Assembly (NCBI RefSeq): GCF_000733945.1
Contig: NZ_JPOL01000002.1
Coordinates: forward strand, 2,729,001-2,793,000
Direction: 5' to 3'
DNA length: 64,000 nucleotides
DNA from: Flavimarina sp. Hel_I_48
GTDB lineage: Bacteria > Bacteroidota > Bacteroidia > Flavobacteriales > Flavobacteriaceae
Shown here: positions 5,311-42,784 of the stretch, piece after piece
Layout: each line of letters opens with the position of its first letter
Numbering within the stretch: position 1 is the stretch's first letter
Notes under the pieces: model-generated
Database searches by the model: none
The model's input: the letters and a program-made list of their open reading frames with translations, nothing else
Told to the model about the DNA's origin: nothing
Program-made: the position numbers and the translations under genes

Positions 5311-5366
5311 TCACTTTTTTGTTTTTCCGGAACACTGTACAGATTGAGATTTTTTGGGAGCGTTAG
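5109..5366 (+). CDS. Doubtful small hydrophobic protein
   Basis: An 85-codon open frame with one long hydrophobic stretch that could form one or two membrane helices. It overlaps the 3' end of the convergent H/Cys protein gene by 56 bases and has no recognisable family. It may be chance coding in AT-rich DNA and is listed only for completeness. Confidence 0.18.
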   Translation: MTSRFLIPFAMKYSKWIQILASSNLIILLIECIILFFCIWVLVEFYFKVINAGNIYHYWKQSYACILVTFLFFRNTVQIEIFWER

Positions 5367-5628
5367 CTTTTAAAGTCAAAATTGTATCATTCGTGGAGTT
5401 GATACTGTTAACTGTATTAGGTTTGCAAACTTTACAGGCTTCATAGCCACTCTCTAACGCTTTTTCTAAAGTGGTCTCAATCTTGGATTCTTTTAGATAG
5501 CGGCATGAGGAAGTATGATATTTTTCTCCAGTTTGGGTGATATATACTTGTTGTACTTGTGACTGACACCTTAATCCTACGACTAGGAATAAGGTGATAA
5601 ATATAAATTTTAAACCTTTGGCCGACAT
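5311..5628 (-). CDS. Secreted H/Cys-motif small protein (last gene of TerB/vWA operon)
   Basis: A 105-residue protein with an N-terminal signal sequence (about 22 residues, ending near RCQSQ). The mature part carries YHTSSCRYL and, after about 20 residues, ACKVCKP. The pattern H-x3-C-x2-L ... C-x2-C resembles small metal-binding modules of the Ada type, so a bound zinc in the envelope is plausible but unproven. The gene begins 31 bases after the vWA-like lipoprotein gene and ends the seven-gene operon. A cytoplasmic protein with the same pattern (9851-10057) lies just upstream of that operon. The exact function is unknown. Confidence 0.7.
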   Translation of the reverse strand: MSAKGLKFIFITLFLVVGLRCQSQVQQVYITQTGEKYHTSSCRYLKESKIETTLEKALESGYEACKVCKPNTVNSINSTNDTILTLKANAPKKSQSVQCSGKTKK

Positions 5629-5659
5629 CCTTAAGCAATTATTATTGAAATAAATGTAA

Positions 5660-6568
5660 TTATTCTTGCAATATAAATCCTTCTATTATTTTTTCCATAT
5701 TTGAAGGGATCAAAGCATTTTTTATTTCGTAGTTCTTAATGCCCATTTCATCAAACCAATCGCTCCAATATTTATAAATCACATCCTCCTCATAAGGATT
5801 TTTAACATCTGGATTGATGCCCAATATCAAAACTTCTAATTTATCCAGATTTTTATTGGCCGGAATAAAGCCATAGTTTTTTTCTTCTATTTTTTCTTTC
5901 CATTTATTTGAATTAAGTCCATTTTGTCTAATGGTTTGGGGTGTAAGATAAGATGTTAAGTTTTCTTCTTTTAATAGTGCGTTTTTATGATATATATAGC
6001 CATCTGTCAAAATCACTAATATATTACGATGATTTTCTGCAATACAGAAATCAGTTATCTTGCTTTTAAAAAACCTCCAGATATCAGAACCGATATAAGC
6101 ATCATCAGTAATTGCCGATTCATAGATCAATCTCGGAACACTATCATATTTTTCGGAGATTGATATTATCTTTTCTTTCGTCGCATTTTCTCTTGAAAAA
6201 GTAAGTTTCAGGGAATTTAGTTTTTTATTCAATTCCTTATCAGCAGGTTCTGGATCAATGTAAAGTTGAATCTTATCGTTTATTTTCAGGGTTCGCTTAT
6301 TCCTCAGATGAATTTCAAATGAATTGGCTACAGTATTAATGTAACCCAGATCTCTTTCATAGAATTCCATTGCTGCATCTGGAAATTTATCAGGATTGAT
6401 ACGGTCTGATAGGTCTAGCAATAAGCTAATATTTAAATCCGGCCTTTCTCCAGATAGTTTTCTTACTGCCTCGATTTTAGAAGTTGGACTTTCAAGAACT
6501 CTGGGCTCTTCTTTACATGCTTGAAAAAATGGCAGTAAAGCAATGATATAGTAGTATGTTTTCCGCAT
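5660..6568 (-). CDS. vWA-like lipoprotein
   Basis: A 302-residue protein with a lipoprotein signal (lipid-anchor Cys18 in FFQAC). It shows the order of a von Willebrand A domain: a hydrophobic strand running into DLSDR at about residues 52-56, resembling the first metal-binding (MIDAS) loop, and later ILVILTDGYIY at about 184-194, a typical second-loop strand. The canonical DxSxS is altered to DLSDR, so metal binding is uncertain. Such domains mediate protein-protein contact and are frequent in Ter-type systems beside TerB. The start overlaps the last base of the preceding membrane-protein gene, which implies translational coupling. Its place in the envelope suggests it faces the periplasm or the surface. 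Confidence 0.72.
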   Translation of the reverse strand: MRKTYYYIIALLPFFQACKEEPRVLESPTSKIEAVRKLSGERPDLNISLLLDLSDRINPDKFPDAAMEFYERDLGYINTVANSFEIHLRNKRTLKINDKIQLYIDPEPADKELNKKLNSLKLTFSRENATKEKIISISEKYDSVPRLIYESAITDDAYIGSDIWRFFKSKITDFCIAENHRNILVILTDGYIYHKNALLKEENLTSYLTPQTIRQNGLNSNKWKEKIEEKNYGFIPANKNLDKLEVLILGINPDVKNPYEEDVIYKYWSDWFDEMGIKNYEIKNALIPSNMEKIIEGFILQE

Positions 6569-7830
6569 TAGTTTACCAGTTTATAGAGGCGACCTTCATA
6601 ATCCTCGTTATCAATATTATACTTTTCCAGATGCAACTGCTGTTGTTCTTCGCAGCTTTTATAAAGTTCATCCCTTCTCTTTAAGCCATCAAAATTATCT
6701 GATATTGCTAAAAACCATCCTTTTACATATTCGGCATGATACGTTAAATAGTGTTTGTTTGAAAAAACAAAGCCATCAATTGTGCGCTGTAGATCAAGTA
6801 TTTTACCTTCTATGCCTGATAACTCCTCTTTAATAGGAGGTAGTTTTTCTTTTATTTTTAAAAGCTCTACTTCCCCATTTTTAATTTCTTCTTTTTTGGA
6901 TCGAATAAAAGATTTAATAAGGTCAAAATTTTCGTACTCTTTCATAATAAAGTCAAATACTAATCCCCAAATAATGTAAACTATGAAACCGGCAAAAATA
7001 ATCCCCCAAAATTCAACAGACGAAAAGGCAATGGATAGATTAAATGGCGGAGAATCTGGTGTTTTATAAAAGTCATATAGCTTTTGTTCAATCAGGTACG
7101 CCAGAATAGCGTCAAAAATGAATGTTATCGCAAAAAGGAGAAGAATTTTGAAATAGGTGAAAAAGTTTTTCTTTTTTTGGAACATATGGATTAGATAACC
7201 GAGTCCCATAAATGCAAACGGAATAGTGGCCACAAATACCCCTTCAAGCCATCCATCAGCAATGGCTTTTGAAAATGCCTCGGCATCAAAAATCGCCTCT
7301 CCAAGCTTATCTGAATTGAAATTTTTGAAAAATGCAGAATAGGATGCGGAAATATAAAATACTAATAGGTAGAGCGTTATGGGTAATAAGACAAACAATC
7401 CTATATAAAACTGGGCTTTTGGCCGTTTGTCCACTTCCAAACCGTATACTTCCGGTTTCCTTCTTACATCAACCATATCCTGCTTGAATGTCCTTATTTT
7501 TTCCTCTACTGAGGCAATGCTTTCTTCGAGAATGCTCAAAGCGGTCTTTCGTTTTTTTAATTCGGTTTCCTGTCTCCCTTTTTCATCCAAATAAGGAGCT
7601 TTGAGCACGTTTTGGAGTTTTTCATTTTCCCGGCATTTGCCTTTATAATCCATATAGACTTCTTCAAGGCAGGTTCTAAAAACCCTGTGATTTCCCTCAG
7701 CCTGTTTTGATGAACCGTAACCACTTTCAAAAAAAGTAAGTTTTACTTTTTGAACATCCTCAACTTCTGGTGTTTTTTCAGAAACAGGCTCTTGCTTTTT
7801 GATGGTAAAAATATTTTTTAAAGTACTCAT
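6568..7830 (-). CDS. Four-helix membrane protein with two coiled coils
   Basis: I do not recognise a named family for this 420-residue protein. A charged N-terminal region with a coiled coil (about residues 55-115) leads to a membrane helix near 133-156. Three more hydrophobic helices follow at about 198-220, 228-250 and 273-300. A second long coiled coil (about 305-360) and a short C-terminal cytoplasmic tail finish the protein. The layout suggests an inner-membrane scaffold with cytoplasmic stalks. It lies between the TerB-like gene (1-base gap) and the vWA-like lipoprotein gene (1-base overlap), so it could join a cytoplasmic TerB component to an envelope vWA component. Confidence 0.7.
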   Translation of the reverse strand: MSTLKNIFTIKKQEPVSEKTPEVEDVQKVKLTFFESGYGSSKQAEGNHRVFRTCLEEVYMDYKGKCRENEKLQNVLKAPYLDEKGRQETELKKRKTALSILEESIASVEEKIRTFKQDMVDVRRKPEVYGLEVDKRPKAQFYIGLFVLLPITLYLLVFYISASYSAFFKNFNSDKLGEAIFDAEAFSKAIADGWLEGVFVATIPFAFMGLGYLIHMFQKKKNFFTYFKILLLFAITFIFDAILAYLIEQKLYDFYKTPDSPPFNLSIAFSSVEFWGIIFAGFIVYIIWGLVFDFIMKEYENFDLIKSFIRSKKEEIKNGEVELLKIKEKLPPIKEELSGIEGKILDLQRTIDGFVFSNKHYLTYHAEYVKGWFLAISDNFDGLKRRDELYKSCEEQQQLHLEKYNIDNEDYEGRLYKLVN

Positions 7831-7831
7831 A

Positions 7832-8224
7832 TCATTCCTGCATTAAGTTTATTAACTGGTCTTTTGGCAAATTGGATTTCGCATTTTCAAGAAGAAAATC
7901 AGTCAGCTTATTAATATTGTCCTTTAGAAATCCAAATTTTAAACAGTACTTTTTAAGTGTTGAAAGTTCATCGGGTTCTACCTTATTATCGGCCCAGATC
8001 ATAATCGCTAAGTCATATAAATAGGAGATTTTTTCTTCAACGGAATCGGGAACCGTAGTTTCGTGAGAAGGATTGAGCAGAATAGCATCAAGTTCTTGTT
8101 TCGTGACACCCCGCTCTTCTGCAAAGTGATAGAGCATTTTCATCTCTAATACGTCAAAATCATCGTCTGAGAACGCCATTTGATAAAGGCGTAAAAAATG
8201 GCTTTTAAGTTCAGTTGAAATCAT
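7832..8224 (-). CDS. TerB-like protein
   Basis: A 130-residue all-helical cytoplasmic protein. Two repeated acidic helix-loop segments, SDDDFDVLEMKMLYHFAEERGV and ADNKVEPDELSTLKKYCLKF, match the duplicated pattern of TerB-like domains, which bind divalent metal and occur in tellurite/stress-response (Ter) systems. It is close to the usual length of a stand-alone TerB. The gene ends one base before the coiled-coil membrane protein gene and starts 12 bases after a small membrane-protein gene. The family link is made from motif spacing by eye, without a profile search. Confidence 0.7.
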   Translation of the reverse strand: MISTELKSHFLRLYQMAFSDDDFDVLEMKMLYHFAEERGVTKQELDAILLNPSHETTVPDSVEEKISYLYDLAIMIWADNKVEPDELSTLKKYCLKFGFLKDNINKLTDFLLENAKSNLPKDQLINLMQE

Positions 8225-8236
8225 GTGGTTGATTGA

Positions 8237-8404
8237 TTAAGTGAGTAGTGTGATTATTTTAATCGCACCTATGAAAGCTATTGTCAAAAATAGTACGCTT
8301 GAACAGCCAAGTTTGGATTTCTTTACCTTTTTGGTTTTCTTTGAAGTATAGTGACCTTGAACGTACGTTCCATCTTTCCGATAATAACCTTTTTTATATC
8401 CCAT
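8237..8404 (-). CDS. Small basic membrane protein with GYYRKDGTYVQGHY motif
   Basis: A 55-residue protein starting at the ATG whose first base is 8404. An upstream ATG in the same frame (8470) would overlap the preceding gene and give a poor N-terminus. The N-terminal motif GYYRKDGTYVQGHYTS recurs in small bacterial proteins of unknown function. A lysine-rich linker follows, then one C-terminal hydrophobic helix. It lies two bases after the DUF4236 gene, inside the seven-gene operon. No function can be assigned. Confidence 0.6.
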   Translation of the reverse strand: MGYKKGYYRKDGTYVQGHYTSKKTKKVKKSKLGCSSVLFLTIAFIGAIKIITLLT

Positions 8405-8406
8405 AT

Positions 8407-8655
8407 TTAAAAGAAAATTAGTAGGGTGGAACCAATAGCGGTAGTAAATATTAATAGTATTGATAGACAACCATTTTTTGAACTATTAAACAAGGATTTT
8501 CTATAGGAGACACCTGGAATTCCAGAACGAACTGTAAATCCCTTTTTATTAATAGATCCTTTTTTTGATCGATAACTTGGTCTAATGCCTGATTTACTTA
8601 CATTCAGTCCAAAGCCTTTGCCCAAGTTTATTCGTTTTTGAAACCCGAAACCCAT
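8407..8655 (-). CDS. DUF4236 domain protein with C-terminal membrane helix
   Basis: An 82-residue protein whose first 55 residues (MGFGFQKRINLGKGFGLNVSK, then SIRPS-like and RSGIPGVSYR-like stretches) match the DUF4236 pattern of glycine and serine turns. One hydrophobic helix closes the protein. DUF4236 is widespread in accessory regions, but its role is unknown. It begins three bases after the stop of the nuclease-like gene, so the two are certainly co-transcribed. Confidence 0.75.
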   Translation of the reverse strand: MGFGFQKRINLGKGFGLNVSKSGIRPSYRSKKGSINKKGFTVRSGIPGVSYRKSLFNSSKNGCLSILLIFTTAIGSTLLIFF

Positions 8656-8658
8656 ATT

Positions 8659-9720
8659 TTAATTTTCTTGCGACATATAATATTCCGCTGTATTCAGTAA
8701 TTCTATATCATAATTATAGATGTCATCAACACAGGTTATAGGTTCACGTTTCTCTATTTTATTCTCATCAAATAGGCCTATATATTTAATTCCTGTATTA
8801 AAATGAAGTCTGCAAATGGGTTTCCTGTTATTATCATCAAGCAAGACGCCAAAATAAGATTGAGTATCTCGGTGCGCAATTCGGTTTATGTCCAGTTTCT
8901 TCCTTAAAATAGCCACGATGATTCTATACGCTTCCAGTTCTTCTTCTGTAGTTATTATTTTACTTTCTGGTATTGGCTCTTCTTCGTTTGTCATATGCTG
9001 CTCTTCAGATTCTTTACTCAAGGCAGAATTTAAGCGATCATTGATCCTTTCACTAATTGTTTGGTTAAAGGCTTTTTGTACAAGCCCAGTAAACTCCTGG
9101 ATTACTTTTTCGGTTAGTCTACCTTCGTAAACCTTCCCTGTAAATAGCCTAACAAGATCGTAAGAAGGCGCGCCTAATTCTTCAACAATACATTTCTTTA
9201 TTTCTTTGGTATATTTTAAAGAACTGGCATTGCTAACAATAGTATCTACATCAAAACTCGATTTCTGAAATTTTGAGATTTCATGAACTTCGCTATCTTT
9301 TAGTTTAGTGATATCAAATTCCAGAAATGGCCTTTCGTCCATTTTGTTGGAGTTTTCCAGATCTGTATAAAACCGGTACTCTATTCCATTTGTCAATAGG
9401 GAAAACCTTGTCTTGGTGGTGTGAAAGTATCTAAATAGCTGCGAATTATGGTTGGTAAGGCTTTCTTTCCAGTTTTTACACTCTATGATCAATATGGGGA
9501 TTCCATTTTGAAATATGGCATAATCAACTTTTTCGCCTTTTTTGAGGCCAATATCTGCCGTGAATTCAGGTACAACCTCAGTGGGATTAAAAGTATCGTA
9601 GCCTAAAATATTGATAAAGGGCAGCACAAAGGCATGTTTGGTAGATTCCTCGGTGCCGATTTTATCCTTTAGGTCTGCAATCTTATCGGCTAGCGCTTTC
9701 AGTTGACTTTTTAGTTCCAT
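8659..9720 (-). CDS. PD-(D/E)XK nuclease-like protein (HsdR N-terminal domain type)
   Basis: First gene of the seven-gene operon. After an N-terminal coiled coil it carries GEKVDYAIF and, 13 residues later, LIIECKNW: the D ... ExK arrangement of the PD-(D/E)XK fold seen in the N-terminal domain of type I restriction R subunits. With the start chosen here these are D66, E80 and K82. There is no helicase or ATPase part; the C-terminal half has no motif I recognise. I chose the ATG at 9720 (353 residues) because the TAGGTTTG promoter element at 9742-9749 would lie inside the coding region if the upstream ATG at 9756 were used. Such stand-alone proteins occur both as nucleases and as inactive sensors. 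Confidence 0.75.
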   Translation of the reverse strand: MELKSQLKALADKIADLKDKIGTEESTKHAFVLPFINILGYDTFNPTEVVPEFTADIGLKKGEKVDYAIFQNGIPILIIECKNWKESLTNHNSQLFRYFHTTKTRFSLLTNGIEYRFYTDLENSNKMDERPFLEFDITKLKDSEVHEISKFQKSSFDVDTIVSNASSLKYTKEIKKCIVEELGAPSYDLVRLFTGKVYEGRLTEKVIQEFTGLVQKAFNQTISERINDRLNSALSKESEEQHMTNEEEPIPESKIITTEEELEAYRIIVAILRKKLDINRIAHRDTQSYFGVLLDDNNRKPICRLHFNTGIKYIGLFDENKIEKREPITCVDDIYNYDIELLNTAEYYMSQEN

Positions 9721-9741: not shown

Positions 9742-9749
9742 CAAACCTA
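9742..9749 (-). promoter_or_regulatory. TAnnTTTG -7 element of the seven-gene operon
   Basis: On the minus strand the sequence is TAGGTTTG, a perfect Bacteroidota -7 element. It lies 21 bases downstream of the palindrome at 9771-9786 and about 20 bases upstream of the ATG at 9720. Confidence 0.6.
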
Positions 9750-9765
9750 AATCCATTAAAAGACA

Positions 9766-9791
9766 AACCCTTACGGTTTTCCGTAAGGGTT
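9766..9791. promoter_or_regulatory. Palindromic operator 1 (core TTACGG-N4-CCGTAA)
   Basis: A perfect inverted repeat with 11-base arms and a 4-base centre; the 16-base core shared with two other sites is 9771-9786. It lies exactly 21 bases upstream of the TAGGTTTG element. The same geometry recurs in front of the 68-aa gene, which favours an activator site over a terminator for the gene upstream. Confidence 0.6.
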
Positions 9792-9850: not shown

Positions 9851-10057
9851 TTACGAAGTATGGCATTCTACTGAACAGGTTTTACAACCGTTAGATTGTG
9901 GATAAGTTTTTTTCGCTTCTGCAACAGCAGTCTTACAATTGGAATGGAGATTTAAATCTTTTTTACTTGCTATTAACGATAGCCAATAACAGCCTTCTTT
10001 ATGTACTTCATGATCGCCATTTTTTTGTGCACTTCTATTTACATAATACCTTGCCAT
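9851..10057 (-). CDS. Small cytoplasmic H/Cys-motif protein
   Basis: A 68-residue protein without a signal peptide. It carries VHKEGCYWL and later GCKTCSVEC, the same H-x3-C-x2-L ... C-x2-C layout as the secreted protein ending the neighbouring operon, plus extra cysteines. Metal binding is likely, but the role is unknown. It has its own promoter (TAGATTTG at 10085-10092) and palindrome (10114-10129), spaced exactly as at the seven-gene operon, so both transcripts are probably controlled together. Confidence 0.65.
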   Translation of the reverse strand: MARYYVNRSAQKNGDHEVHKEGCYWLSLIASKKDLNLHSNCKTAVAEAKKTYPQSNGCKTCSVECHTS

Positions 10058-10084
10058 AATTAATTTTTAAAAGTTAATAATACC

Positions 10085-10092
10085 CAAATCTA
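10085..10092 (-). promoter_or_regulatory. TAnnTTTG -7 element of the 68-aa gene
   Basis: TAGATTTG on the minus strand, 28 bases before the ATG at 10057 and 21 bases downstream of a TTACGG-type palindrome. Confidence 0.6.
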
Positions 10093-10113
10093 AAACCATT
10101 AAAAATCAAAACC

Positions 10114-10129
10114 TTACGGATTTCCGTAG
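10114..10129. promoter_or_regulatory. Palindromic operator 2 (TTACGG-ATTT-CCGTAG)
   Basis: Near-perfect copy of the palindrome at 9771-9786, one arm ending in G instead of A. The 21-base spacer to the -7 element also keeps the block TTTTTAATGG in a form close to that of site 1. Confidence 0.6.
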
Positions 10130-10154
10130 TGATCAAGTATTTCATTAAATATCA

Positions 10155-10184
10155 CAAAAAAAGGGCGCATCCCTGCGCCCTTTT
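10155..10184 (-). terminator. Intrinsic terminator below the response-regulator gene
   Basis: On the minus strand a GC-rich stem of nine pairs (AAGGGCGCA with TGCGCCCTT, loop of four) is followed by a run of Ts. It would end transcripts from the regulator gene and any short transcript starting near 10217. Confidence 0.8.
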
Positions 10185-10217
10185 CAAAATCCCCTAACAC
10201 GGATTGATCAATCAATC
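10155..10217 (-). ncRNA. Possible short RNA under operator 3
   Basis: The -7-like TAATCTTG at 10223-10230 lies 21 bases downstream of operator 3. A transcript starting about six bases beyond it would be roughly 63 nt: a 5' hairpin (GGATTGAT paired with ATCAATCC, 10201-10218), a short linker and then the strong terminator. No start codon lies between. It could instead simply be the 3' untranslated region of the regulator mRNA. Confidence 0.3.
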
Positions 10218-10251
10218 CAATACAAGATTACCATTATAAAAATACCTTTCC

Positions 10252-10267
10252 TTACGGAAAACCGTAA
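10252..10267. promoter_or_regulatory. Palindromic operator 3 (TTACGG-AAAA-CCGTAA)
   Basis: A perfect copy of the 16-base palindrome, 9 bases beyond the stop of the response-regulator gene. It is 21 bases upstream of TAATCTTG (10223-10230), which matches TAnnTTTG in all but one base. Confidence 0.55.
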
Positions 10268-10276
10268 CAGAATAAC

Positions 10277-10942
10277 TTAAATCAATCCCAGATCTTTTGC
10301 AACTGCGACAAGCTGTACGGCGTTATTAGCTTTAAATTGAATACGCAGCTTATTTAGTCTCTTTTCTATGGAGCTGACCCCACTTGGGTTGATGGATTCC
10401 TTTTTGTATTGATCGCTAATTTCTCTGTTTGAATATCCTTCGGCTAATTTTTTCAGCAACAGTATATCATAGTCATCTATCTCAAGGCTTTGTTGTTTAT
10501 CAAGCGCTGCCGCAACTTGTGAAGAAATATATCGCTCATCTTTTTTAATGCAAACAAAGGCTTCTCTTAGATCTTCTATACTTTTTCTGCTTTTAAAAAC
10601 ATAGGCATCAAGCTGTTGTTCATTAAAAAGAGAGCGTATTCTCTGTAAGCGCTCTTCCATAGAAAAAACGATAATTTTTATATTTGATGGGTGCTTTCGT
10701 ATAGCTGCTATAAGTTCATCGCCGCTTTTAAGCTTTTGCTCTCGATGATCTTCTTTAAAGGATAAATCTGCGATGAGCAGATCAAAAGATTTTTCTTCTT
10801 TAAGTGCTTTGAGATACTTAAGATATGCATCATCGCAATATTCGGTTAGAACGACCTCTTTAACGCCCATAGTAATGAGTTGCTGTTCTATCCTTTTGGT
10901 ATTCCACCCTAAATCCTCTGCAATGAGTACCTTGTTAAACAT
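10277..10942 (-). CDS. NarL/LuxR-type response regulator
   Basis: A 221-residue two-component regulator. The receiver domain (residues 1-125) has the acidic pocket E9/D10, phospho-acceptor D59 in LLIADLSF and K117 in VFKSRK. A LuxR-type helix-turn-helix domain follows at about 150-215 (LAEGYSNREISDQYK through SSIEKRLNKLRIQF). The gene starts directly after the stop of the histidine kinase gene with no gap, so the two form a cognate pair. Three palindromes of the size expected for a dimeric NarL-type protein lie immediately downstream on the same strand, in front of other genes of this module. They are the natural candidates for its binding sites; this is inferred, not shown. Confidence 0.9.
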   Translation of the reverse strand: MFNKVLIAEDLGWNTKRIEQQLITMGVKEVVLTEYCDDAYLKYLKALKEEKSFDLLIADLSFKEDHREQKLKSGDELIAAIRKHPSNIKIIVFSMEERLQRIRSLFNEQQLDAYVFKSRKSIEDLREAFVCIKKDERYISSQVAAALDKQQSLEIDDYDILLLKKLAEGYSNREISDQYKKESINPSGVSSIEKRLNKLRIQFKANNAVQLVAVAKDLGLI

Positions 10943-12601
10943 TCAAATCTGTATTTCAACTTTTAAACCTTTGTTCAATTCTGATTCAAAACTAATGTTT
11001 CCGTTAATGGCACGAATACGGAATTCCATATTCTGCATCCCATTTCCCTTTTTCAATGCTGTTCCTATCCCATTATCCTGATAGACCATTCGCAATTTTT
11101 TGCGGTTTTGTTCAAACGAGATTAACGCTAAGGTTGCCTGGCTATGCTTTTTATTATTGGTCATTAATTCGCCCAATACCATATAGATTGTATCTCTCTT
11201 GATCTTACTGAATGATTCCCATTTAATTTTCTCTACGTTTCGGGTGATTACATTTAAATGGGTTGACCTATAGGAATTTAGCCTGCTGATTAATTGATCT
11301 TCAAAACCAGCACCTTCAATTAGCGGGCTATGGTTTTTTGCAATGTCCCTAGTTTCCTGGTAAATCCTATCTAGTTTTATAAGAATATGTTCTGGTATGT
11401 CCTGTAGGTTTTGTAATTCTGACAGTATTTGAAAAGTATCGTTAGCCAGTCCATCATGGATTTTTTTTGAAATTGAGGTCTCTGTGCGTTGAACCGCTTT
11501 TAACTGCCGTTGCTTACGTTTTTGTAAAATTCCATATATAATTATGACAGAAACCAATAGGATGACAATCGATATGAAAAAATAAAAATTCTTTTTGCTC
11601 TTTTCCTTTTCCTGTTGGACTTTTGCGATGTGGGTGAGTTCTTTTTCTTTATCAACATCGTATTTCATTGCTGCATAATTGTTCTCTTTCAGCCTTCTTG
11701 CATCTTCAAGACTGTCTTTTAAATTTTTAAAGCGAATGATCTTTGGGTCTTCAGTCAAGAGTGCATATTGTCCCAATGAATTTTCAATATATTCTGGAGA
11801 ATTAATTTGTTTGGCGATATCATAGGCTTTTGTAAAATAAGATTTAGCTCTTTCATGATCATCTTTCTCTATAAAATACTCGGTTAAATCATTATAACTA
11901 GAATATTGCCCTATCAAATCTTTTTCCTCAATTCTATTATATAGGGCTTGTTCCATGGTTAAAAGGGCTTCATTGTTTTTCAATTTGAATTGCATATAAC
12001 CAAAATTGGCCAATATACGTGCATATTGACCTTTTTTTTGAACTTTATTTTGAGCTGCTACTTTTAAAGCTTCTTCTAAAATGTCTTTGGATAGATCATA
12101 CCTTTCTAGATCCTTATATATAGTTGCTTTATTATTTAATAAACTTATACTGTCATCTTTGGTATCAATAAAAAGAAGTGCTCTATCATAATAAAATAGT
12201 GCTTTTTGATAATTTTGAATACGTCTATAGATCATTCCCAATTGATTATTGAGTCCTACCATCATAGTTCTTTTAATATCGTTGTCCGATATTACTTCAG
12301 TTAAATTTAAGGCAGTTACTATGGTTTTTTCACTTTCAGCAAATAGGCCGTAAGTCGTCTGGCCGATTGCTATAAGCCTTAAATTCTTAATAGCTTTTAG
12401 GGTATCTTTGTTATTGATCGCATAATTTACGCCTTCCTTATAAAATTTTAGTGCTTTATTAAACTCGTCATAATTACTGGGTTTTAGAATTTTATCATAA
12501 TGATATCGTGCACTATCTATTTCCTTCGTTATTTGAGTATAACCAGCGCATGCAAATATCACGTGTAATAAAAAGAGGAATGAAACTGTAAATGTTTTCA
12601 T
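10943..12601 (-). CDS. TPR-containing sensor histidine kinase
   Basis: A 552-residue membrane kinase. A signal peptide (about 20 residues) leads into a periplasmic region of tetratricopeptide-like helical pairs (about 50-300). One transmembrane helix follows near 330-352, then a coiled-coil linker. The H-box KKIHDGLAND places the phospho-acceptor at His382, as in HisKA_3 kinases that pair with NarL-type regulators. The ATP-binding domain shows an N-box with TNNKKHS and a G-box with DNGIGTALKKGNGMQNM. TPR sensors of this type are common in Bacteroidota; their signals are mostly unknown. It lies between a small lipoprotein gene (29-base gap) and the response-regulator gene. Confidence 0.9.
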   Translation of the reverse strand: MKTFTVSFLFLLHVIFACAGYTQITKEIDSARYHYDKILKPSNYDEFNKALKFYKEGVNYAINNKDTLKAIKNLRLIAIGQTTYGLFAESEKTIVTALNLTEVISDNDIKRTMMVGLNNQLGMIYRRIQNYQKALFYYDRALLFIDTKDDSISLLNNKATIYKDLERYDLSKDILEEALKVAAQNKVQKKGQYARILANFGYMQFKLKNNEALLTMEQALYNRIEEKDLIGQYSSYNDLTEYFIEKDDHERAKSYFTKAYDIAKQINSPEYIENSLGQYALLTEDPKIIRFKNLKDSLEDARRLKENNYAAMKYDVDKEKELTHIAKVQQEKEKSKKNFYFFISIVILLVSVIIIYGILQKRKQRQLKAVQRTETSISKKIHDGLANDTFQILSELQNLQDIPEHILIKLDRIYQETRDIAKNHSPLIEGAGFEDQLISRLNSYRSTHLNVITRNVEKIKWESFSKIKRDTIYMVLGELMTNNKKHSQATLALISFEQNRKKLRMVYQDNGIGTALKKGNGMQNMEFRIRAINGNISFESELNKGLKVEIQI

Positions 12602-12630
12602 TCCTCTAAAATAAGCTTTATTAATTACAT

Positions 12631-12786
12631 TTATTTTTCATCTGGTGGAGGTGGCGGCGGTATGGGTTCATCATCTCCGCAACATGCTTGTGTATTCTGC
12701 AACTCTTCATTTAATTTTTCTGGAGAACACGAAAAAAGTGCCAGATTGAGGAAAACCGTAAGTATTATTAAAATTGATTTTTTCAT
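12631..12786 (-). CDS. Small proline-tailed lipoprotein
   Basis: A 51-residue lipoprotein starting at the ATG with first base 12786. The frame stays open further upstream, but MKKSILIILTVFLNLALFSC is a complete lipoprotein signal. The anchor Cys20 is followed by a short acidic segment with ACCGDDE and a C-terminal run of six prolines before DEK. It lies 29 bases before the histidine kinase gene and is probably co-transcribed with it. It may serve as an envelope partner of the kinase, but this is inferred only from position. Confidence 0.6.
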   Translation of the reverse strand: MKKSILIILTVFLNLALFSCSPEKLNEELQNTQACCGDDEPIPPPPPPDEK

Positions 12787-12847
12787 TTTATATGTTTTAA
12801 AATTGGACATACCGGTGGCTGTCCGAGATTTTTGACTCAGTGATATG

Positions 12848-12863
12848 GAGCGGTTTTCCGCTT
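12848..12863. promoter_or_regulatory. Weaker CGG-TTTT-CCG palindrome upstream of the kinase operon
   Basis: AGCGG-TTTT-CCGCT shares the CGG-N4-CCG centre with the three TTACGG palindromes but not the outer bases. No TAnnTTTG element lies 21 bases away. It may be a divergent autoregulatory site or one hairpin of a structured leader. Confidence 0.3.
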
Positions 12864-12890
12864 TAAGAAAAGAAGAGACGTCTCTCTGTT

Positions 12891-12937
12891 TTTGAGAAGT
12901 ATGGAGTGTAGAAGTAGAGATTTGAATACTTCTCAAA
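12891..12937. repeat. Inverted repeat with perfect 12-base arms
   Basis: TTTGAGAAGTAT at 12891-12902 pairs perfectly with ATACTTCTCAAA at 12926-12937 around a 23-base loop. Confidence 0.7.
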
Positions 12938-13168
12938 TTGTCAAACCCGCAACGACCACAGCTCCATTTTGCAGAAATCTTTTACATCGCAAACCCCTTT
13001 GCATCAGGGACGTAAGTGATTTCTGAAGCAAATGAAGGGAGAATCGAAAAGAGGTTAGGGAAAATAGCTGGAAAGGTTTGGGAAAGTTCTTGGAAACTAA
13101 TTTCCCAAAAATTTCTGCCGATTTTTCCCTTATATTTAAACCGTATTATTTAATCTAAGCTACTTTAT

Positions 13169-13936
13169 ATGAGCCACAAGGCGTTGATAATTCTAGCTTT
13201 CAAAAAAGCGGGACAGAACGAGCTGATAAAAGGGAATAAAGAACCGTCAAAAACGGAAAAGGCAACTGCACTTTCCGTGGCGGTGGCAGAAATTAATAGA
13301 TCTACCATAGGCGAAAAAAGCCTGAGGACATATTATAAAAGGGCCAGCAGCGCAGAAGAAGGAGAGGATATCAAAATCCCACAATGGGAGGTGGTTGAGG
13401 CTTTATTACAGTATTTGGGATTCACGGACTATGCGGACTTTTTGCAATCGCTAGGGGAGGCCAAACAGCTTGGGGATTTAAAAGAAGATCGAACCATTGC
13501 CGAAGAAAAGTTTATGAAACCCTTTTTTATCAAAGGTTGGTTTCTGAGCAACAGGAAAGGATTGATTTTAGGCTTTACAGGAATAACTGTGCTCCTTGTG
13601 TTCTTATTTATAAATCTTAAAGAAGAACAGCGCTGGATGGTCTGGCAAATCGATCATTATAAGGAAGTCGATTTTAATGCACAGCTGGTAGGCCATGGAA
13701 GATTAAAACGCTACAGGGAAGAGCGGGTGGAGGAATTTAAAAAAGTAGAACCTGATTGCAACACCATATTTTTTAACAAAGACGGGAGTGTAAAAATCTG
13801 GTATGGTAAAAACAGTGAAGGGCAGTTGGAATTTTTTACCGCTCTGGGCCTTCACCCAGAAACGGGAAAAACGCTCAAATCAATTACAGAATATATGATT
13901 CTAAAGTATATATGTCCTAAAGAAAGGGATCAGTAA
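13169..13936 (+). CDS. Uncharacterised protein with one membrane helix
   Basis: A 255-residue protein that I do not recognise. The N-terminal 115 residues are hydrophilic and helical, with lysine-rich stretches and a segment resembling a small nucleic-acid- or protein-binding domain (residues 40-100). One transmembrane helix (GLILGFTGITVLLVFLFINL) lies near 130-150. The C-terminal 105 residues are probably extracytoplasmic. The cytoplasmic-domain/helix/outer-domain order resembles one-pass regulators that transmit a signal, but no known domain can be asserted. It is divergent from the lipoprotein/kinase/regulator operon. Confidence 0.6.
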   Translation: MSHKALIILAFKKAGQNELIKGNKEPSKTEKATALSVAVAEINRSTIGEKSLRTYYKRASSAEEGEDIKIPQWEVVEALLQYLGFTDYADFLQSLGEAKQLGDLKEDRTIAEEKFMKPFFIKGWFLSNRKGLILGFTGITVLLVFLFINLKEEQRWMVWQIDHYKEVDFNAQLVGHGRLKRYREERVEEFKKVEPDCNTIFFNKDGSVKIWYGKNSEGQLEFFTALGLHPETGKTLKSITEYMILKYICPKERDQ

Positions 13937-14153
13937 AAATTCTTTATTTTCAACTTCAAGATATTACTCTTTAATCAATCAAAACTTCATATCTGAAATA
14001 TTTCATTTAAAGAACTTGAATAGAATTATTGAAAAGGCGATTGGGGAAATTAATTATGATGAATAATAAAACGATCTTAGAAGTAACCGTCGAAGAGAAT
14101 TTGAAAAAGTAATTTGAATATAGGTCAAAAGGAAGTGATTATTGTTACAATCA

Positions 14154-14190
14154 AAAAAACCCTATAAATCAAATGATTACAGGGTTTTTA
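14154..14190 (-). terminator. Terminator of the tmRNA gene
   Basis: Arms AAAACCCT (14156-14163) and AGGGTTTT (14181-14188) with A/T tracts on both outer sides, so it can work for the minus-strand tmRNA; it lies 23 bases beyond the mature 3' end. Confidence 0.65.
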
Positions 14191-14212
14191 AAGTAGTCTA
14201 AAATGTTAAAAG

Positions 14213-14610
14213 TGGAGTCGGGCGGGTTCGAACCGCCGTCCAAACGGGCAACTCAATAGCTTTCTACGCGCTTAGTCTTCACTTAATTTTCGTGCACCGG
14301 CCGGATGAAAACCTCCAACCATTACCTTATCCTTGATTAAGTTTCGCCTTTTCATCAAGACCCTAAAAAGGCTAGGTATACTTTTTCGGTACCTCACAAT
14401 GAAACGCCGTTTACCAGGGCTTTTCGGAGGTATCATGGTCACGTACCTTGTACGTGATTAGGGTAATCTTACTGTGATTCAGATTACGCAGCCATGGCGT
14501 AGTTATTCTCGCCGTTTAAAAAGTGTGAAAAATGAGATTTACGAGCTGTTTCCCAGCGCTCGGCGTGCTTACTATCCAATTAGACCCGCTGTCTAAACCA
14601 AATCGACCCC
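14213..14610 (-). ncRNA. ssrA: Transfer-messenger RNA (tmRNA)
   Basis: The 5' end GGGGTCG pairs with CGACTCC at the 3' end, followed by discriminator A; CCA is not encoded. The T-arm GCGGGTTCGAACCCGC-type sequence is visible next to the 3' end. The tag frame reads GGC GAG AAT AAC TAC GCC ATG GCT GCG TAA, giving GENNYAMAA. Trans-translation rescues stalled ribosomes and marks the nascent protein for proteolysis. The length of 398 nt is normal, and the pseudoknot region contains several further stems. The tag matches the GENNYA(L)AA style of Bacteroidota with Met in place of the more usual Leu. Confidence 0.95.
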
Positions 14611-14649
14611 GGTGTATTGAATAAATTTTCCATTTTTTAAAATGGAAGG

Positions 14650-14657
14650 CAAATGTA
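14650..14657 (-). promoter_or_regulatory. TAnnTTTG -7 element of ssrA
   Basis: TACATTTG on the minus strand, 40 bases upstream of the mature tmRNA 5' end. The leader between them contains TTCCATTTT/AAAATGGAA, a hairpin that processing would remove. Confidence 0.55.
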
Positions 14658-14705
14658 CAATTATTTTATAAAATAGCGCTTGCATTCTAAGGCTGTGCCA
14701 AACAA

Positions 14706-15533
14706 CTATTTTTTATTTAAAGTGACCTCGTCACTTAGCGTAGTTTCTAGTTTGGCTTTGCCATAACTATTGAGCGTGCTTTTGTCTTTGGCAAAAATGA
14801 CCAACATTTCAGTGGTATGCAGATCTGCTTCGGCTTTGTCACTTAGGGTTATCTGTGCAGATTCTATTATAAAATCTTTAGCATTTAATTCGCTATCATT
14901 TGCAAGGTTAATCGTTGCATTTTCCGCCTCTCCTTCCAGTGTAAGTTCTGTACTTTTCTGTAGATTGATACTGGTTTCTTTCGTTTCAAGCTCTGCCTGA
15001 AGTTCTGAACGGTCATTCATAAAAATATTTAGATTTTCCGTCTTTCCTTCCAGTTCGCCTCTAGCTTTTCCCTGTAACGTGATGCCCAGATCTTTGGATA
15101 ATATGTCTAGCTCAAATTCGCTGTCATCATATGCGCTAATGGTCATATTATCCGTATCAAACAGGCCATCGCTTTTAAGTTCTACATCGTTTTTTAGCTC
15201 AATTTGGTTGATTTCTTCAACATTTAGGTAGATTTCAAGGCGTTTACTACTGGTAATACGCTGTGTAGTCTCGACGTAAAGCGTACTGTCACGAACTACA
15301 AATTTCACAATGTCTACCAGATTTTTATCTGCTGAAAGAATATAGCTGTTGCGGTTGGATTGCTTTATTTTGACTTCAAATTCACCACCTATGCTTATTC
15401 CATTAAAGCGTTGCTCAATGGGGTGGGTAACCGAAATGACATCACGGTCTCCCTCAATTTTTTCCTTTTTCTGAGCCGCACATGATGTAAGCATGCCCGC
15501 GATTACTAAAACAATCAAATTCTTTTTTGTCAT
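14706..15533 (-). CDS. DUF2807 (GIN domain) lipoprotein
   Basis: A 275-residue lipoprotein with anchor Cys18 (GMLTSC). The mature protein begins with the DUF2807 pattern (FNGISIGGEFEVKIKQ, then SADKNLVDIVKFVV and LYVETTQ) and continues as regular short strands of a right-handed beta-helix. Many Bacteroidota encode such proteins, often called adhesin-head-like, with unclear roles in the envelope. It stands alone next to ssrA; its start is divergent from the gene at about 15730. Confidence 0.8.
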   Translation of the reverse strand: MTKKNLIVLVIAGMLTSCAAQKKEKIEGDRDVISVTHPIEQRFNGISIGGEFEVKIKQSNRNSYILSADKNLVDIVKFVVRDSTLYVETTQRITSSKRLEIYLNVEEINQIELKNDVELKSDGLFDTDNMTISAYDDSEFELDILSKDLGITLQGKARGELEGKTENLNIFMNDRSELQAELETKETSINLQKSTELTLEGEAENATINLANDSELNAKDFIIESAQITLSDKAEADLHTTEMLVIFAKDKSTLNSYGKAKLETTLSDEVTLNKK

Positions 15534-15729
15534 AAATACTAAATTTATTATGCTTCCCTAAAAGGCGTTCACTATGCCGAAAATTTTCGGTTAAAATACA
15601 AGGTTTGTACTAATGCTAATCCTAATTTGTAAGAATAACAAGGTACGGCTAATCTATCAGGATGCCAATAGTAGTGCAATAAAAGCCGAAAAAAGTAAAA
15701 CGAATCCTTATAAAATACGTATTTTTCCT

Positions 15730-16968
15730 ATGAATGGAATCAAACCAGTAGTTATGCAACCGATAATTTTTGCTTTAATCAAGGAAAGAAAAGACCCGCC
15801 AGACAGGCGTACTGTTTTTTCACCCACAAAACTGCGCGAGGTACAGGAGCTCTTTCCCGAAGCAAAATTTCTGGTGGAAAGTTCGGCAATACGCGCGTTT
15901 CCAGATGTTGCGTACAAAAACGCTGAATTTACGGTAAGCGAAGATGTCACCGCAGCTGAGGTTTTGATAGGAGTAAAGGAGGTGCCCATAGACTTTTTGA
16001 TATCAGGTAAGAAGTATTTTTTCTTCAGTCATACCATAAAAAAACAGGAATACAACCGCGAACTTTTGCAAGCGGTGCTGTTTAAAAATATAGAACTATA
16101 CGATCACGAGGTCATTACAGATCAAAACGGAAATCGCCTTATTGGTTTTGGCCGTTATGCGGGTCTGGTAGGGGCCTATAATGGTATAAGGGCCTGGGGA
16201 GAACGGCATAAAAGTTGGTTTCTTCCTCCTGCCAGTACGTTAAGTGGACTGAAGGCGATGAAGGCCAAGCTGGATGAAATAAACCTGCCAAATATTAAAA
16301 TCTGCCTAACCGGAGGCGGGAGGGTTGCCGGTGGTGCCAAAGAAATTCTTGATTATTTAAAAATCAGGCAGGTTTATGTTGATGACTTTTTGAATATGGA
16401 ATTTGATGAACCGGTATATTGTAAAATTGATGTACTGGATTACAACAAGCGCATCGACGGAGAACCTGCTACGCAAAAAGAATTTTTTAGGGATCCCACA
16501 ACGTTTGAGTCCAACTTTATGCGCTTTGCAAAAGTAACGCAGTTTCTGATTACGGGGCATTTTTATGGGGACGGTGCGCCGCAATTTTTGACTCAAGAGG
16601 ATGCGAGAAATCCCGACTTTAAAATTGAAGTTGTTGCAGATATTTCCTGTGATCTTAACGGTCCCATAGCTTCTACCATTCGAACCTCTACCTTAGAAGA
16701 TCCTTTTTATGGTTATGATCCCAAAACGCAAAAAGAAACTAATTTTGATGCTCCGGGTGCGATTACGGTAATGGCGGTAGATAACCTGCCATGTGCTTTG
16801 CCCATGGATGCCAGTGAGGGTTTTGGCGATATGTTTTTAAATCATGTTATGCCGGCTTTTTTTAACGATGACAAGGATGGAATCCTGGAACGCGCACGAA
16901 TGACAAAAAATGGTCAACTAACTGATCGTTTTAAATATCTACAGGAATTTGTAGAGGGCAAAGAATAA
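15730..16968 (+). CDS. Saccharopine/alanine dehydrogenase-like NAD(P)-binding enzyme
   Basis: A cytoplasmic protein of 412 residues from the ATG at 15730; the frame is open from 15613, but the added 39 residues look unstructured. The N-terminal part (KERKDPPDRRTVFSPTKL ... AFPDVAY) resembles the N-terminal domain of alanine dehydrogenase/lysine-forming saccharopine dehydrogenases. A Rossmann glycine-rich stretch (CLTGGGRVAGGAKEIL) lies at about residues 193-208. The later part includes ADISCDLNGPIASTIR and DNLPCALPMDAS, typical of this family. It probably reduces or oxidises an amino acid with NAD(P)H, but the exact substrate cannot be read. It is followed by a 250-base gap before guaB. Confidence 0.75.
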   Translation: MNGIKPVVMQPIIFALIKERKDPPDRRTVFSPTKLREVQELFPEAKFLVESSAIRAFPDVAYKNAEFTVSEDVTAAEVLIGVKEVPIDFLISGKKYFFFSHTIKKQEYNRELLQAVLFKNIELYDHEVITDQNGNRLIGFGRYAGLVGAYNGIRAWGERHKSWFLPPASTLSGLKAMKAKLDEINLPNIKICLTGGGRVAGGAKEILDYLKIRQVYVDDFLNMEFDEPVYCKIDVLDYNKRIDGEPATQKEFFRDPTTFESNFMRFAKVTQFLITGHFYGDGAPQFLTQEDARNPDFKIEVVADISCDLNGPIASTIRTSTLEDPFYGYDPKTQKETNFDAPGAITVMAVDNLPCALPMDASEGFGDMFLNHVMPAFFNDDKDGILERARMTKNGQLTDRFKYLQEFVEGKE

Positions 16969-41201: not shown

Positions 41202-41522
41202 ATGTCTAGAAATAGTATTATATTACTACCTAAAAATAAGAAGCTTTTACAAGCAGTGGGAGAAAATATTAAATTAGCACGCTTACGCAGGAAACTAACT
41301 ATGGATCAGGTTTCAGAGCGAGCAGGGATTTCCCGTCCCACACTTTATTCCTTAGAAAAAGGAAGTCCTTCAATTTCTTTAGGTATTATTCTCCAAGTTT
41401 TATTAGTATTAGGGTTGGAGAAGGATATATTGCTTTTGGCCGACGATGATGTATTGGGCAGAAAAATACAGGATGCCGATCTAACCGTAAAGGAACGCGG
41501 CCCAAAAAACACCAAGAAATAA
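41202..41522 (+). CDS. hipB: HipB-like antitoxin, XRE family
   Basis: A 106-residue DNA-binding protein with an HTH_XRE domain (about 20-75; LARLRRKLTMDQVSERAGIS then RPTLYSLEKGSPSISL). It would neutralise the HipA kinase and repress its own operon. Its TAA stop shares a base with the hipA start (TAATG), a tight translational coupling normal for hipBA. Confidence 0.88.
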   Translation: MSRNSIILLPKNKKLLQAVGENIKLARLRRKLTMDQVSERAGISRPTLYSLEKGSPSISLGIILQVLLVLGLEKDILLLADDDVLGRKIQDADLTVKERGPKNTKK

Positions 41523-42784
41523 TGGCAACGGAACGAAAAGAAATATTTGTATATGCACATTGGGACGGCATTGAAGCTCCATTCTTAATGGGAAGTTTAC
41601 ATGCTACGTCATCCAGAGGGAAAGAAATATTTTCCTTTGAATATGATAAAGGATGGTTACAATCGGATTATGCCCAGATCATAGATCCAGACCTACAATT
41701 ATTCGAAGGAGCTCAGTACCTCAATGATGAGAAATCCAATTTCGGTATTTTCTTGGATTCTTCACCTGATCGATGGGGACGGGTTTTAATGATGCGTAAG
41801 GAAGCAGCTAAAGCCAGAAAAGAAGATCGACGTCCCAAAACTTTAATGGAGTCGGATTATCTACTTGGGGTTTACGATACTAACCGAATGGGAGGGCTTC
41901 GTTTTAAAACAGCAAAGGATGGTACTTTTTTAGACGATAATGAAGCTATGGCTACACCACCTTTCGCTGCACTTAGAGATCTTGAATTTGCCAGCTTACA
42001 GCTAGAGAAAGAAGATGCCCCAGATAATCCAGAATACCTAAAATGGATCAATATGCTAATGGCACCAGGATCCTCCTTAGGAGGTGCAAGACCTAAAGCA
42101 AATATACAGGACACAGATGGTAGTTTGTGGATTGCTAAATTTCCAAGTCAAAATGACCAGCAGGATATGGGTGCTTGGGAAATGCTGGCGTATCGACTTG
42201 CCGTTCAATCGGGCATTGAAATGGCTTCTTCAAAAATCCAAAAATTTTCGCATCAGCAACATACATTTTTGACACAACGCTTTGATAGGAAAATCGATGG
42301 TACTCGTATCCATTTTGCCTCTGCAATGACCTTATTGGGATATACTGACGGAACGGACTATCAAGATGGGGTCAGTTATTTAGAGCTTGTGGAATTTTTA
42401 ATGCAGAATGGTGCTAATGTTGATAATGATCTCAAGAAGTTATGGAAACGTATTGCTTTCAACGTTTGTATTTCCAATACGGATGATCACCTTCGCAATC
42501 ACGGATTTCTGTTAACGGATTCCGGTTGGATGCTTTCACCCGCCTATGATATCAATCCAACCCCGAACGGTACAGGTTTAAAACTTAATATTTCAGAAAA
42601 TGACAATGCTTTGGACTTAGACCTAGTACGGGAAGTAGCTCCTTATTTTCGTTTAAAAGAAAAAGAGGCCGATGCTATTATCAATACAATCCAACAGAAT
42701 ATAGCTCAATGGGAACAATTATCGAGGGATCTAGGTATTCCAAGAAATGAAATGGAATTAATGAAAAATGCATTTAAGTATTAA
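41522..42784 (+). CDS. hipA: HipA-type serine/threonine kinase toxin
   Basis: A 420-residue toxin of the HipA family. The N-terminal subdomain contains a WDG...GSL stretch. The P-loop-like autophosphorylation segment APGSSLGGARPKA lies at about 181-193, the catalytic loop with NTDDHLRNHGF (D321, D322) and the metal-binding PAYDINP further on. All key residues appear intact, so it should be active. In known cases HipA phosphorylates glutamyl-tRNA synthetase and stops growth; the target here is unknown. Confidence 0.92.
   Translation: MATERKEIFVYAHWDGIEAPFLMGSLHATSSRGKEIFSFEYDKGWLQSDYAQIIDPDLQLFEGAQYLNDEKSNFGIFLDSSPDRWGRVLMMRKEAAKARKEDRRPKTLMESDYLLGVYDTNRMGGLRFKTAKDGTFLDDNEAMATPPFAALRDLEFASLQLEKEDAPDNPEYLKWINMLMAPGSSLGGARPKANIQDTDGSLWIAKFPSQNDQQDMGAWEMLAYRLAVQSGIEMASSKIQKFSHQQHTFLTQRFDRKIDGTRIHFASAMTLLGYTDGTDYQDGVSYLELVEFLMQNGANVDNDLKKLWKRIAFNVCISNTDDHLRNHGFLLTDSGWMLSPAYDINPTPNGTGLKLNISENDNALDLDLVREVAPYFRLKEKEADAIINTIQQNIAQWEQLSRDLGIPRNEMELMKNAFKY

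Follow-up and report, generated by a model that had tools for sequence, protein, structure and literature searches.

The stretch considered here, called the window, comprises 64,000 nucleotides of Flavimarina sp. Hel_I_48 (contig NZ_JPOL01000002.1, positions 2,729,001 to 2,793,000). The element in question is a gene island, mostly on the minus strand, in which a two-component system is followed by copies of a 45-bp operator-promoter module and by the genes behind them, ending in an operon of seven genes (5311..9720). A preliminary description had drawn attention to these seven genes, and the operon is real: in this genome it stands as one transcription unit behind one promoter. It is nevertheless the tail of a larger switchable island present in many relatives and not the natural unit. 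Its conserved core is a trio encoding a TerB-like protein, a membrane protein (MEMB) and a vWA-fold lipoprotein (VWAL), and the remaining four genes are optional cargo. The two-component system lies directly upstream, outside the seven genes singled out earlier. The comparison draws on 56 loci: the window, 37 from titled genome records and 18 stretches from whole genomes. These are not independent, as L011 and L013 are two Cellulophaga baltica strains and L023 and L033 look alike; L075, a weak fragment with stops (E 3e-4), is kept among them, and the labels of L032 (Bacillota) and L036 (Campbellbacteria) are possible binning errors.

Upstream controller and operator-promoter module

The gene order C6-C7-HK-RR-cargo-TerB-MEMB-VWAL recurs across loci. 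The response regulator (RR, 10277..10942, minus strand) consists of a receiver and a DUF5932/LuxR-type C-terminus, and at least 90% of 47 regulators share its residues D10, D59 and K117. The adjoining gene encodes a TPR sensor histidine kinase (HK, 10943..12601, minus strand; TPR_12, weak HATPase match), of which H382-D383 and the N-box and G-box residues are shared by 90% or more of 47 members. With the conserved His, the conserved Asp/Lys and abutting genes, HK and RR have the make-up of a two-component pair. The first gene before the kinase, C7 (12631..12786, minus strand), encodes a 51-aa lipoprotein with a CC pair and a proline-rich tail; its cluster is detected in 26 of the 56 loci, short genes being easily missed, and the 40 members listed combine a lipobox with an acidic or CC segment, and many also end in a proline tail. 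C6 (13169..13936, plus strand) is divergent and encodes an N-terminal helical region, one transmembrane (TM) segment and a C-terminal domain ending in GLHPxTGKTLxxIT (54 members aligned). It has no Pfam match, and its cluster occurs in 41 loci. The RR gene lies upstream of the trio in 45 loci, and in 43 of the 46 for which at least 6 kb of upstream sequence is available.

The module consists of the palindrome TTACRG-N4-CYGTAA, exactly 21 nt, and the box TAnnTTTG, and is found in 45 of the 56 loci. Palindromes of the type TTACGG-N4-CCGTAA stand in the window at 9771, 10114 (one mismatch) and 10252, each within a module on the minus strand. Module 1 (10223..10267) has its palindrome at 10252-10267, followed after 21 nt by TAATCTTG, with one mismatch; no open reading frame (ORF) was found behind it. 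Module 2 (10085..10129), also with one mismatch, drives the small H/Cys gene SML, the ATG of which lies 56 nt from the palindrome end. Module 3 (9742..9786) is perfect and drives the seven-gene operon, with 50 nt from the palindrome end to the ATG at 9720.

An operator search built on the window's own palindromes finds 168 with at most two mismatches in the 46 kinase-bearing loci, against 12 expected under a first-order model. For 80 of 118 palindromes an ATG opening an ORF of at least 35 codons lies 20-109 nt downstream, and by a recount of the tally the first such ATG falls at 50-59 nt in 56 of the 80. It was the alignment of the palindromes that revealed TAnnTTTG 21 nt downstream: among 91 exact boxes 5-44 nt after a palindrome, 81 are at exactly 21 nt. 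This spacing is taken from the 56 MEMB-selected loci; a count of 108 boxes at 21 nt includes the regions L082-L101, which were picked by their module, and is biased for that reason. The box is the -7 consensus published for Bacteroides and Flavobacterium (PMC7366714, PMC2483708). If transcription starts about 6-7 nt after the box, the palindrome centre would lie near -43, the position of a class-II activator, and the palindrome would overlap the place where a -33 element would be.

Module 1 may give rise to a small RNA. The candidate (10150..10216, minus strand) would comprise about 65 nt after the module 1 promoter and end in a strong terminator hairpin; the segment 10141-10216 of that strand has a minimum free energy of -24.3 kcal/mol (z -3.25). 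By eye, stretches following the RR gene in L007-L010 resemble this candidate. The palindrome just after the RR gene in L001, L011, L031 and others extends on both sides, likewise by eye, into a longer inverted repeat, which could double as the regulator's terminator.

The association between regulator and module extends to whole genomes of the family. The perfect module occurs at 98 sites in 66 of 199 genomes, compared with 7 sites for the reversed control pattern (our own table count), and an RR orthologue is present in 88 of the 199 (82 of 185 genera). Genomes with a perfect module carry the RR orthologue in 64 of 66 cases, versus 24 of 133 for the others (Fisher p=3e-29). All 20 genomes with a clear MEMB have RR and 18 of them have the perfect module (p=4e-8), while 48 of the 66 module genomes have no MEMB match. 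More than half of the perfect sites (54 of 98) lie at most 3 kb downstream of an RR gene on the same strand. This co-occurrence ties the module to the regulator and makes the trio one of its putative targets. The regulatory architecture of the island is strongly supported.

The TerB, membrane protein and vWA-lipoprotein trio

The three core genes lie together on the minus strand. The TerB-like protein (7832..8224) is probably cytoplasmic, given the lack of a signal. MEMB (6568..7830) is predicted to place four TM helices between two coiled-coil arms (predicted local distance difference test, pLDDT, 79.7; predicted template-modelling score, pTM, 0.50). VWAL (5660..6568) is a lipoprotein of vWA fold with invariant DLSDRI and DGY motifs. 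The preliminary description had named repeated co-occurrence of this trio with conserved neighbours as the sign of a system, and such recurrence is found: TerB lies directly before MEMB in 49 of the 56 loci and VWAL directly after it in 55, with both conditions holding in 49 under a strict adjacency rule. L015 and L022 fail that rule (over-extended ORF, split ORF) while possessing all three genes. Among 392 genomes that span the phylum MEMB itself is found in 20, and among 199 of the family in 21, each set including one weak fragment.

The vWA assignment made earlier holds, and the TerB assignment is supported, though less firmly. The TerB-like protein of the window scores 19.4 bits, below the PF05099 gathering cut-off of 24.4; 20 of 20 relatives match PF05099 at E<=1 (best 2.9e-7), and a divergent relative reaches 35.1 bits. 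MEMB and VWAL have 1640 and 1914 homologues, respectively, at E<=0.001. A Foldseek comparison of MEMB with the PDB returns 272 matches at E<=10, the top ones mostly long coiled coils, and none at E<=0.001. Pfam and NCBIfam searches are uninformative for the lipoprotein and for some of the small proteins, and a PDB sequence search with the VWAL family profile gives only 2 matches (best E 0.4). The top Foldseek match of VWAL is the pilus adhesin SpaC (E 2.7e-4). Across 52 sequences DLSDR is invariant in the first loop and DG in the third, with T in at least 90%; the first loop, with DLSDR, departs from the canonical metal ion-dependent adhesion site DxSxS...T...D.

The likeness to SpaC raises the question of whether the trio could be a secretion or surface-assembly machine, in which MEMB would supply energy or a scaffold to a vWA adhesin at the surface, with RR as a switch of the FimS/FimR kind for surface structures. 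Of 167 VWAL proteins scored (174 examined; 7 dropped by the pattern, and a few rows take the wrong Cys), 129 have a Lys at +2 from the lipobox Cys, which is reminiscent of surface-export signals, yet the N-terminus would fit poorly the published optimum C-X-K-(D/E)2, with Lys mainly at +3 (PMC5080379). FimS-FimR of Porphyromonas gingivalis likewise joins a TPR sensor kinase to a cognate transcriptional regulator and controls fimbriae (PMC11053733). HK resembles FimS only weakly (36 bits against an NCBIfam cut-off of 600), which places it outside the FimS family, and the window RR would act on cargo cassettes instead of fimbriae. The neighbour families scanned with Pfam, which represent part of the clusters, include none named as a fimbrial or secretion component, and such a machine leaves no clear place for TerB and the nucleases. 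A surface-assembly role is improbable.

A trans-envelope complex of the TerB-like protein, the four-TM coiled-coil protein and the vWA lipoprotein is a plausible reading of the trio. The earlier suggestion of a Ter-type network between envelope and cytoplasm stays plausible to that extent. The link it drew from the envelope to a nucleic-acid-acting protein through a direct membrane scaffold is less likely than a transcriptional one through the upstream two-component system. The terZABCDE tellurite-resistance cluster shares with the operon a TerB-like protein, below the Pfam cut-off in the window; no other ter gene is matched among the seven genes or the scanned neighbour families, which was the extent of the search. 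Among the open-access papers listed, none describes the trio, the module or the island as far as title and opening of the abstract show; there was also no paper on the operator sequences and no relevant one on DUF4236.

Exchangeable cargo and recognised defence genes

The other four genes of the operon are optional companions of the trio. The first (8659..9720, minus strand) encodes a PD-(D/E)XK protein with an HSDR_N domain (Pfam, 69.1 bits, cut-off 25.1), detected in 17 of the 56 loci; at least 90% of 14 members share its residues E64, D78 and E92-x-K94, numbered from the 9756 ORF. A DUF4236 protein (8407..8655, minus strand; Pfam) follows and is found in 32 loci. The small GYYRKDGTYV protein (8237..8404, minus strand), with a C-terminal hydrophobic stretch and no Pfam match, is found in 28. 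The secreted H/Cys protein at the operon end (5311..5628, minus strand), whose family occurs in 35, weakly resembles the Ada zinc domain (Ada_Zn_binding 18.1 bits, cut-off 23). Outside the operon, SML (9851..10057, minus strand) is a 68-aa H/Cys-rich protein without a Pfam match, of a family present in 7 loci. On this survey of gene presence, the seven genes are rejected as one conserved unit. The single operon behind a single promoter in the window genome would suit a system in which all seven genes serve to pass envelope stress straight to the nuclease-like protein, but with HSDR_N in so few loci, and behind the same promoter without a trio in L087, this is the least probable reading of all. 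With Type I HsdR the window protein shares the N-terminal HSDR_N PD-(D/E)XK domain and conserved catalytic residues; it differs in length (about 353 aa) and has no helicase match, and membership is rejected at 18.2 bits to the hsdR model (cut-off 284.55).

Between RR and the trio, and after the trio, the loci carry a varied cargo: HSDR_N, DUF4236, H/Cys, DUF1508, DUF2188, DUF6804, DUF6567, PEGA, HNH, bacterial PH-SHOCT, TM2, SNase and ion channel proteins, and more weakly matched DUF4177 and GIY-YIG (T5orf172-type). Four unrelated nuclease types are thus represented (HSDR_N, HNH, GIY-YIG, SNase); an EEP nuclease gene adjoining the trio, mostly on the opposite strand, is not counted as cargo. 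Beyond the trio loci, the surroundings of perfect modules were read in 20 regions, picked by eye with those nearest the consensus first; they hold 25 of the 98 perfect sites. Eighteen of them come from 17 genomes without a MEMB match, and 18 carry HK and RR (exceptions L088, L098). The payloads include an HNH protein (L083), HSDR_N (L087), a vWA lipoprotein (L096), and M48, ABC, WG-repeat and CsgG proteins (L101). L094 has a divergent trio behind a perfect module that the profile search missed, so that this search undercounts trios. In L086 a perfect module is accompanied (9979-16833) by a lipoprotein and by tubulin-like and FtsA-like proteins, below Pfam cut-offs, which may represent an unfamiliar cytoskeleton-like payload.

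Recognised defence genes occur among the cargo. Of 28 proteins compared with PADLOC, 7, spread over four loci, reach E below 1e-20, the cargo proteins outside the window having been picked by eye. Behind the perfect module of L085 lie TerY (5.3e-54), PP2C (1.4e-26) and two STK_OB kinases (1.2e-54 and 9.7e-50). In the trio locus L031 a variant module, whose palindrome has two mismatches but whose spacing is 21 and whose box is good, precedes PD-Lambda-1 (5.1e-106); PD-Lambda-1 is reportedly validated by experiment as a defence system. PDC-S71 (2.6e-217) follows the trio and DUF4236 in L024, and the trio locus L025 has an OLD/GajA-like gene. Known systems of the PD-Lambda-1, PDC-S71 and OLD/Gabija types thus occur at such islands, and none of them is matched by the eight window proteins tested. 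A parallel in Ter-type logic is the TerY-P triad (TerY vWA, PP2C and kinase in one operon): in L085 the vWA protein TerY stands beside a membrane DUF4407 partner behind the same module. The window is not itself such a triad, as there is no kinase or phosphatase match among its operon proteins and no PADLOC match to the triad among the eight tested. Modules like TerY-P that include an OB-fold kinase are described in PMC11090510 as anti-phage systems in their own right; in place of the DxSxS motif quoted there, the lipoprotein of the window has DLSDR.

The same regulatory island could instead serve an envelope or metal stress response, in which the trio would keep the envelope stable or reshape it, with repair or scavenging as the task of the nucleases and zinc proteins. 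Ter genes are published as tellurite and oxidative-stress genes, and the ion channel, the PEGA and DUF6567 lipoproteins, M48 and CsgG among the cargo would suit such a response, as would the flanks that recur within some groups, such as gyrase-like genes after the Tenacibaculum loci (the cluster labels gyrase and YidD are readings of sequences by eye). TerY-P, PD-Lambda-1, PDC-S71 and OLD-like cargo, together with the four nuclease types, are hard to accommodate in a stress response, which we regard as rather unlikely. The recognised defence genes and the four unrelated nuclease types favour inducible defence.

Two further features of the window lie outside the island: a HipBA-like toxin-antitoxin pair (41202-42784, plus strand; an HTH_3 gene directly followed by a HipA_C gene) and, close to the island, a tmRNA gene (14210-14610, minus strand; tag GENNYAMAA).

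A probable inducible payload island

Taken as a whole, the locus is probably a two-component-controlled payload island, which most likely serves, once induced, to protect the cell at its envelope from phage or foreign DNA. The defence role as such, which is read from gene content, is evenly poised. The sensor side (C6, the lipoprotein C7 and the TPR histidine kinase) would monitor the cell envelope and activate RR. Once phosphorylated, RR would bind the TTACRG-N4-CYGTAA palindromes, centred about 43 bp before the putative start, at the place of the -33 element, and would turn on the TAnnTTTG promoters as an activator of class-II type. Any gene behind the 45-bp module would then join the response, making payloads exchangeable between lineages. 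In the window genome the payload would comprise the small H/Cys protein, possibly a small RNA, and the seven-gene operon. The core products of that operon would form the trans-envelope TerB, four-TM coiled-coil and vWA-lipoprotein complex, with the PD-(D/E)XK protein in addition.

Several observations weigh against this reading. The eight window proteins tested give no strong PADLOC match (best E 0.0023), the STK_OB matches in L085 span the kinase part of the model alone and not the OB fold, and one of 10 control flank genes also scores strongly, with the RmuC model listed under DRT. RmuC we take to be of housekeeping type. Some payload genes have no evident defensive character (ion channel, M48 peptidase, ABC transporter, CsgG). 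TerB is absent from the distant loci L037 and L072-L074, and from L075. MEMB has no relative in viral contigs (a pattern-based scan) or in phages and only one weak partial match in plasmids, unlike many mobile defence systems; from these searches the idea that the island is mobile-element cargo was also rejected. On the regulatory side, L034 has kinase and regulator and no palindrome at two mismatches or fewer, 24 genomes have RR without a perfect module and 2 the module without RR, and 44 of the 98 perfect sites fall outside the 6 kb that follow an RR gene on its strand.

These remote sites are either distant members of a regulon or products of chance, or belong to something else. Regulon membership is suggested by two such sites in the window's own genome. 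At C2:1944702 (L077) a perfect palindrome with 21-nt spacing and a -7 box one base off precedes a DUF6567 and a PEGA lipoprotein, both of families that are cargo in other islands. At C2:771206 (L098) a perfect module lies upstream of an insertion-sequence transposase ORF, perhaps a cargo site struck by insertion.

It is often unclear how bacterial defence islands come to be expressed. The kinds of component found here (two-component system, vWA, TerB, nuclease domains) are already known; to our knowledge, the arrangement of one regulator, a standardised promoter and interchangeable payloads is new. Tentatively, and with somewhat less assurance than the defence role alone, the island may be viewed as a plug-in inducible immune platform of Bacteroidota, with an envelope sensor made of lipoprotein and TPR kinase, a standardised module, and interchangeable and unrelated defence payloads; the previously undescribed trio complex would often be the effector, and some genomes would add a small RNA as output. 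One sensor-regulator pair and one 45-bp module unite very different payloads, and the module is directly searchable, so that any gene that follows it can be put forward as having a possible part in defence or envelope stress. DUF4236, DUF1508, DUF6804, DUF2188 and the H/Cys proteins, to which no function is assigned, are thereby placed in a shared candidate regulon, and the trio provides a concrete candidate for a trans-envelope Ter-like complex.

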